From Candidatus Nitrosopumilus sp. (GTDB lineage Archaea > Thermoproteota > Nitrososphaeria > Nitrososphaerales > Nitrosopumilaceae), in contig QOOS01000007.1 of the NCBI GenBank assembly GCA_003331425.1, positions 1 to 64,000 on the forward strand: a stretch of DNA of 64,000 bases, in the 5' to 3' direction. Shown here one piece after another: positions 21,421 to 23,082 of the stretch (the stretch's first letter is position 1; the number at the start of each line of letters is the position of its first letter). A program made the position numbers and the translations under genes. The notes beneath the pieces were generated by a model that saw nothing but the letters and a program-made list of their open reading frames with translations, ran no database searches and was not told the DNA's origin.

Positions 21421-23082
21421 GTGTCTTCTCAACCTCGTATAGAAATTCAAGGGCAGGCGCCTTTTAAGCAATCTGGTGTCTATGAGGCTCAAATTTCAAT
21501 TATTGATGTAAAACCATCTGACAATGACATTCGTGCCAAAAAATTCACTCCTTTGTGGAAGGGAAATTTTCATTTAAAAGTAAAAGATGGTATTTTTTCA
21601 GAAATCTTAGGTGATTCTAAAAACCCTCTTCCATCCTCTGTTGATAATCTGAATGTTGTTTGGGTTATTGTAAGTGATTTATTTTCTTCAGTATATTCTG
21701 TTTTTGATGTAACTTTAAGAAAATCTTCTGAAACTATTACTGCTCCTGAGAAAGCTCCTGAGAAAGCTCCTGAGAAAGCTCCTGAGAAAGCTCCTGAGAA
21801 AACTGTAAAAACTAAACGTTCCTCAAAAAATATTACAAATTCTGATAATTTAGGTGTACGAGGTGTTCGTGGTGTAACTGGTGACAAAGGTGAAACTGGT
21901 GCAACTGGTGCAACTGGTGACAAAGGTCAATCTGGTTCACCTGGTGACAAAGGTGACAAAGGCCCAACTGGTCCAACTGGTAACAAAGGTGACAAAGGCC
22001 CAACTGGTGCAACTGGTGACAAAGGCTCAACTGGTGACAAAGGACTTTCTGGTGACAAAGGACTTTCTGGTCAAAAAGGTATCACTGGTGACAAAGGTGA
22101 CAAAGGTGACAAAGGAGTTACTGGTTCACCTGGTGACAAAGGTGACAAAGGCCCGACTGGACCTGCCGGTGACAAAGGTTCAACTGGATTAAAAGGCCCA
22201 ACTGGACCCAATGGAGAAAAAGGCCCAACTGGATTGCCTGGTGACAAAGGAACTTCTGGAATTCGTGGTGTCCCTGGTGACAAAGGTGACAAAGGTCCAC
22301 AAGGTCCACCTGGTGACAAAGGATTAACTGGACCTGTTGGTGTCCCTGGAGAAAAAGGTCCAACTGGAACTTCTGGTGTTCAAGGAGAAAAAGGAATTCA
22401 AGGTACTCCTGGTCCTCTTGGAGAAAAAGGAGTTACTGGACCTGCCGGTGACAAAGGTCCTATTGGCCCACCTGGACCTGCCGGATCTAAAGGAATTACT
22501 GGACCTGCCGGCCCTCTTGGTGACAAAGGAACTATTGGCCCACCTGGCCCTCTTGGTGACAAAGGTAGTAAAGGTCCCGAAGGTCCCACTGGTGACAAAG
22601 GTCCACAAGGTCCACAAGGTCCTGCTGGAGCTAAAGGATTAACTGGAGTTCCTGGTCCACAAGGAGAAAAAGGAGAAAAAGGTCCACTAGGCCCAATTGG
22701 TGAAAAAGGAACTACTGGTGCAACTGGTCCACCTGGTGACAAAGGTCCACAAGGTCCACAAGGAACACAAGGTGAACGTGGAACTACTGGTCCATCTGGA
22801 GAAAAAGGTCCACAAGGTCCACAAGGAATTCAAGGTCCACAAGGTGAACGTGGTCCTACTGGTCCAATAGGTTCTATTGGTGAAACTGGTCCGATAGGAG
22901 GTCAAGGTCCTGTTGGTCCTGCTGGCCCAAGAGGTCCACCTGGTCCACCTGGAGAAAAAGGTCCATCTGGTGGAATGTCATCTGAACAAAAAGCTATCTT
23001 TAAAGAACTCTTGGAAATTTTGACTACCAAAGAAATCATTAGTACTGAAGAACAAATTAAATTAATGAGTTATTTGTATTAA
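21421..23082 (+). CDS. collagen-like Gly-X-Y repeat protein
   Basis: The 553-residue protein has four parts. An N-terminal beta-rich domain (~5-102) comes first. A linker with five Pro-Glu-Lys-Ala repeats (~108-127) and a basic stretch follow. Next is an uninterrupted collagen-type region of about 124 Gly-X-Y triplets (145-516). Last is a 37-residue amphipathic helical tail that could act as a trimerisation unit. Lys in Y is often followed by Gly-Asp or Gly-Glu (DKGDKG, EKGEKG), the axial salt bridges that stabilise bacterial collagens without hydroxyproline. No signal peptide or membrane segment is visible from the GTG start, so location is open. Function unknown. Confidence 0.85.
21742..21801 (+). 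repeat. 12-bp tandem repeat encoding Ala-Pro-Glu-Lys
   Basis: Five exact copies of GCTCCTGAGAAA lie in frame in the linker of the collagen-like gene. The copies are identical at the DNA level, so the array is young or homogenised. Confidence 0.9.

Follow-up and report, generated by a model that had tools for sequence, protein, structure and literature searches.

A collagen-like rod protein, real and conserved, is encoded by a single-copy core gene of the archaeal family Nitrosopumilaceae, and no description of it was found in the open-access literature that we searched. The window, i.e. the whole stretch of 64,000 nucleotides that was analysed, comes from a Candidatus Nitrosopumilus genome of 1.24 Mb and 96.6% completeness. 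The gene is an open reading frame of 553 codons with a GTG start and a TAA stop, and residues 145-519 of its translation form a single run of 125 Gly-X-Y triplets without a break (124 without the closing GGM hinge). The features of the locus are as follows:

20173..21306, minus strand: divergent TPR-repeat protein, a constant neighbour and possible partner, beside the head in 74/77 loci
21380..21417, plus strand: upstream block CGATCCAAATCCTGAAATACTTCAAATATTAACAAACG, with a similar block 5' of the gene in the listed loci of the same genus
within 21380..21417, plus strand: TATA-like AAATACTT, 20-27 bases 5' of the GTG, with a putative promoter role and start site
21421..23082, plus strand: collagen-like rod protein, 553 aa (ORF, PF01391, orthologs in 22/22 genera of the family)
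21424..21723, plus strand: N-terminal head, aa 2-101, predicted beta-sandwich (AlphaFold2; A1 profile with 15 invariant columns)
21724..21852, plus strand: charged low-complexity linker, aa 102-144, with five APEK units (translation)
21853..22977, plus strand: collagen-like region, aa 145-519, 125 triplets, ~107 nm if triple-helical (Gly-X-Y count, ortholog comparison)
22924..22959, plus strand: C-terminal imino-rich cluster of 12 residues (conservation profile, 129 orthologs)
22975..23079, plus strand: C-terminal two-helix hairpin, aa 519-553, proposed trimerisation element (AlphaFold2, column identity)
24010..25128, minus strand: DRG/Obg-type GTPase gene, named from its sequence, downstream flank in 72/77 loci

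The Pfam Collagen model (PF01391), the only Pfam family to match the protein, recovers it with a score of 201 bits (E = 1.6e-60), above the curated threshold of 27.2 bits. Proline occupies 36% of the X positions, and the Y position holds much lysine (38) and threonine (26). An earlier note on this DNA had described about 124 perfect triplets set between a beta-type head and a helical tail, with no export signal, and this anatomy stands. Its statement that the rod is rich in KGD and KGE pairs was overstated, as there are only six and two of these; what is abundant instead are GDK (23) and GEK (9) triplets, the latter level with GPT and GPQ (9 each) among the most frequent. The linker, whose DNA contains a 12-bp repeat at 21742-21801, differs in length and sequence among orthologs. 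Directly 3' of the stop codon lies a 13-bp AT-rich repeat in 7.6 perfect copies (23083-23181). At the other end of the gene, the spacing of the TATA-like element to the GTG suggests that the transcript may be leaderless.

The ortholog set was drawn from 169 loci with 150 distinct sequences, 129 of which are complete, i.e. possess a recognisable tail and one uninterrupted run. The remainder were not counted because they run off a contig, include N, end in a divergent tail or appear mis-assembled, and none was excluded for a clean interruption. The complete orthologs together hold 14,577 triplets with zero interruptions. In 297 equal-length ortholog pairs, which are not independent of each other, bases 1-2 of the glycine codons show 0% change, as against 47% at their silent base and 23% at bases 1-2 of the X and Y codons, the zero being due in part to the filter that admits only uninterrupted runs. 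The glycine positions are under purifying selection, and the conservation of their codons, together with the unbroken repeat in 129 orthologs, rules out a chance origin. Broken homologues or frame-disrupting indels had been named in advance as observations that would speak against the protein; none of the 129 complete orthologs is interrupted, and in the assembly of one single-contig genome (G006; L299 2389-4050) the copy has both a frameshift and an in-frame stop, which could reflect either a sequencing error or a pseudogene.

Rod lengths among these orthologs range from 68 to 185 triplets with a mode of 124 (~106 nm), so that the rod is not a strict ruler. Length steps of about 20 triplets were considered and rejected, as no sharp period emerged from a phase scan (R ~0.60 at 18-19 triplets); orthologs of one genus share their lengths. 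In genus g5, with genomes of 0.8 Mb (L034, L296 and L297), the head is kept, the linker is long and the rod has about 34 triplets in L034. The charge on the rod is periodic: in most genera, GC-rich genera among them, a charged triplet returns about every 3.94 triplets (~3.4 nm), and by permutation this period has P <= 0.02 in 18 of 21 representatives, L040, L044 and L047 being the exceptions. At lag 4 the excess identity is 0.014 for silent glycine bases versus 0.116 for charge; the near absence of the period from silent bases argues against recent duplication. Conserved blocks of the rod lie at residues ~225-245, 390-420 and 465-480 and at the C-terminal imino-rich cluster, which with its GPPGPPG is among the best-conserved stretches in the profile of 129 orthologs and which we propose as a candidate nucleation site for triple-helix zippering.

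Searched for in 200 Nitrosopumilaceae genomes, the head was present in 167, among them 111 of the 119 good-quality genomes; every one of the 22 genera has it, almost always as a single copy. In a class-wide profile search of 300 genomes it was present in 21 of 69 genera, all Nitrosopumilaceae among the matches listed, and was not found in the other 48 genera sampled. A search with the tail alignment returned relatives of the gene in named records of Nitrosopumilus, Nitrosarchaeum, Nitrosotenuis and related organisms. The family's tail also occurs in a record titled Phycisphaerae bacterium (L202), which is probably contamination, and in one titled Nitrososphaeraceae archaeon (L244), which is probably misnamed. 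Eight good-quality genomes gave no head match. In five of these (G189, G195, G056, G106 and G108) a contig ends in the TPR gene or within ~260 bases of it, suggesting that the gene, being repetitive, is missing mostly through gaps in the assemblies; in G149 and G167 the TPR ortholog was not found either and the locus is missing; and G087, in which other genes lie beside the TPR gene, is the sole candidate for a true loss. In 2015 the Pfam Collagen family counted 14 archaeal versus 2,554 bacterial sequences (PMC4565658), and the protein had at first been taken for one of a rare, sporadic kind in archaea; it is rather a fixture of its family, and other collagen-like ORFs are present in the class.

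The gene is fixed at one locus, with nirA-like and rhodanese genes beyond the TPR gene (72/77 loci each). Orthologs of the TPR protein (38-46% identity) are found in related families that have no head, which suggests that the collagen gene joined an older neighbourhood. The fixed position and near-universal presence in the family indicate that the collagen is probably made by these archaea. No dedicated export system adjoins the gene at the 77 loci compared. On its downstream side, 23259-23723 on the minus strand encodes a 154-aa protein rich in lysine, arginine, alanine and proline that resembles a histone H1 tail and contains about 20 copies of an 18-bp repeat; a gene of this kind occupies the same position in 11 of the 77 loci.

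AlphaFold2 models of single chains predict the 100-residue head with pLDDT 93.7 and pTM 0.85 as a mostly beta structure (strands at 6-11, 18-27, 45-54, 57-62, 78-85 and 91-97), and the 35-residue tail with pLDDT 95.3 as two helices (3-18 and 24-34). The tail columns have a mean identity of 77% across orthologs, and a search of the source genome with the tail gave only one strong match. Neither module belongs to a family in Pfam, NCBIfam, PHROGs or PADLOC. Foldseek found no match to the head structure at E <= 0.001 in the PDB or among viral models, and HMMER returned no significant match in PDB sequences; in the databases searched, the head is without a relative outside Nitrosopumilaceae. A SHOCT-type C-terminal helical domain was considered for the tail and rejected, as 19 tails gave no match to Pfam SHOCT at E values up to 10. 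A role of the tail in trimerisation is plausible, given a conserved two-helix hairpin adjoining the conserved GPPGPPG cluster.

By inspection and hydropathy, no signal peptide, transmembrane helix or LPXTG motif is present in 135 orthologs, in which a polar N-terminus precedes the head. The absence of an export signal from all orthologs examined suggests that the rod is probably cytoplasmic. Prokaryotic collagens of known role are mostly found outside the cell or in virus particles, which counts against such a location.

Our preferred explanation, in which our confidence is a little better than even, is that the protein forms a homotrimeric collagen rod whose trimerisation and nucleation take place at the C-terminus and which serves these archaea as a core structural protein and cytoplasmic spacer or scaffold. 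Three chains would join through their C-terminal two-helix hairpins, and the adjacent GPPGPPG cluster would nucleate the triple helix, which would then zip up in the N-terminal direction into a rod of ~107 nm, with three beta-sandwich heads on flexible linkers at the opposite end. The periodic charge could support side-by-side association or offer a regular series of docking sites, and the rod would then separate a partner bound to the heads from one bound to the hairpins. Precedents come from the streptococcal protein Scl2: its hydroxyproline-free collagen rod is stable to ~36 C (PMC8968730), and in its trimerising domain two-helix hairpins assemble into a six-helix bundle (PMC6736723). By analogy with this V-domain, the archaeal tail may trimerise in a comparable way.

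A more specific proposal, which we regard as doubtful, is that the triple-helical rod of ~100 nm constitutes an internal skeleton or spacer of the Nitrosopumilaceae, gained a single time, in the ancestor of the family, and retained since, even in genomes of 1.2 Mb. Crenactin or MreB is usual in rod-shaped archaea (PMC7613921). No actin match was found in the six genomes tested, and the sole match to the MreB profile in these genomes is, in the source genome, DnaK. With these two proteins not found, an internal collagen scaffold would be an attractive hypothesis. The DnaK of the source genome (L090 1480-1650, G000:C1) itself bears a tail of GAEGQQ-type repeats that is picked up by the Pfam Collagen model.

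It is possible, though in our estimate rather unlikely, that this trimer is instead a surface fibre, released from the cell through lysis or by export that needs no signal, and that it works at the S-layer as an adhesin or as a brace of the envelope. Of the prokaryotic collagens characterised so far, most sit on the cell surface (PMC8968730), and a transcriptome and proteome study of Ca. Nitrosotenuis chungbukensis MY2 from 2026 reports an 'LPXTG-anchored collagen-like adhesin', highly expressed at low salinity and read as envelope-related (PMC13037477). However, no ortholog examined has a signal peptide, membrane segment or anchor, the gene has no export system of its own beside it, and MY2 encodes both an ortholog (L099/L220) and another collagen that has a signal peptide and seems to be divided between contigs C21 and C20 (L257/L253), so that the published protein may be either the ortholog or this second collagen. 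To judge from its sequence, the name does not suit the ortholog: NCBIfam NF038329, the model for LPXTG-anchored Scl2/SclB adhesins, matches the protein described here through its repeats only (222 bits against a cut-off of 325), the cut-off is reached by no protein in six genomes, MY2 included, and the LPXTG motif is absent.

The notion that the repeat is not a triple helix at all but a soluble, highly charged disordered chain with an osmotic, crowding or charge-storage role would suit its high content of lysine, aspartate and glutamate and its strong low-complexity character, and disordered collagen-like proteins of archaea have been reported to be highly transcribed (PMC5069720). We nevertheless find it improbable, as disorder would need no unbroken glycine at every third residue and here glycine is fixed while X and Y change. 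Phage tail fibres often carry collagen repeats and the collagen region of this protein has matches in many tail-fibre families of PHROGs, yet a domesticated virus or tailocin fibre is a most improbable source, since these matches are confined to the repeats, the head has no real PHROG match, no tblastn match in 50,697 phage records (INPHARED) and no relative in IMG/VR, and the housekeeping neighbourhood is stable throughout the family.

The cytoplasmic rod that we favor can be set beside several known collagen-like systems, from which it is new in its head, tail, absent export signal and family-wide fixity. With Scl1 and Scl2 (SclA/SclB) it shares a collagen rod without hydroxyproline, charged X and Y residues and a globular end, and possibly, in its predicted hairpin, the means of trimerisation of the Scl2 end domain (PMC6736723). 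Unlike the archaeal protein, which has neither signal nor LPXTG and bears an N-terminal beta head and a C-terminal hairpin, Scl proteins have a signal peptide, an LPXTG wall anchor and an N-terminal helical domain. Phage tail-fibre collagens (PHROG 6320, 5073, 366 and others) are likewise Gly-X-Y rods between folded ends, made in the cytoplasm without a signal peptide, but in the searches run the archaeal head and tail are unrelated to theirs, and the archaeal locus is cellular and kept in 22 genera. By description, the BclA-type exosporium collagens of Bacillus also have a collagen rod that is made in the mother-cell cytoplasm and not secreted (PMC8968730 and general knowledge), but they are spore-coat proteins with a stable C-terminal globular domain, whereas archaea form no spores. 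The secreted collagen of MY2 likewise has collagen repeats and comes from the same archaeal family, but it is the product of a different gene; it has a signal peptide, its GATGPTG repeats are T-rich, and its repeat-rich domains look extracellular.

In the ocean, few archaea are as abundant as the Nitrosopumilaceae. A single-copy, family-wide and apparently unexported collagen in them would be the first collagen known to us that belongs to the core genes of an archaeal lineage, and would caution against naming archaeal collagens LPXTG-anchored adhesins. As the gene is short and its product looks soluble, direct expression is feasible. The rod is a candidate organiser of the interior or the envelope of small cells that, in the genomes tested, are without actin or MreB.
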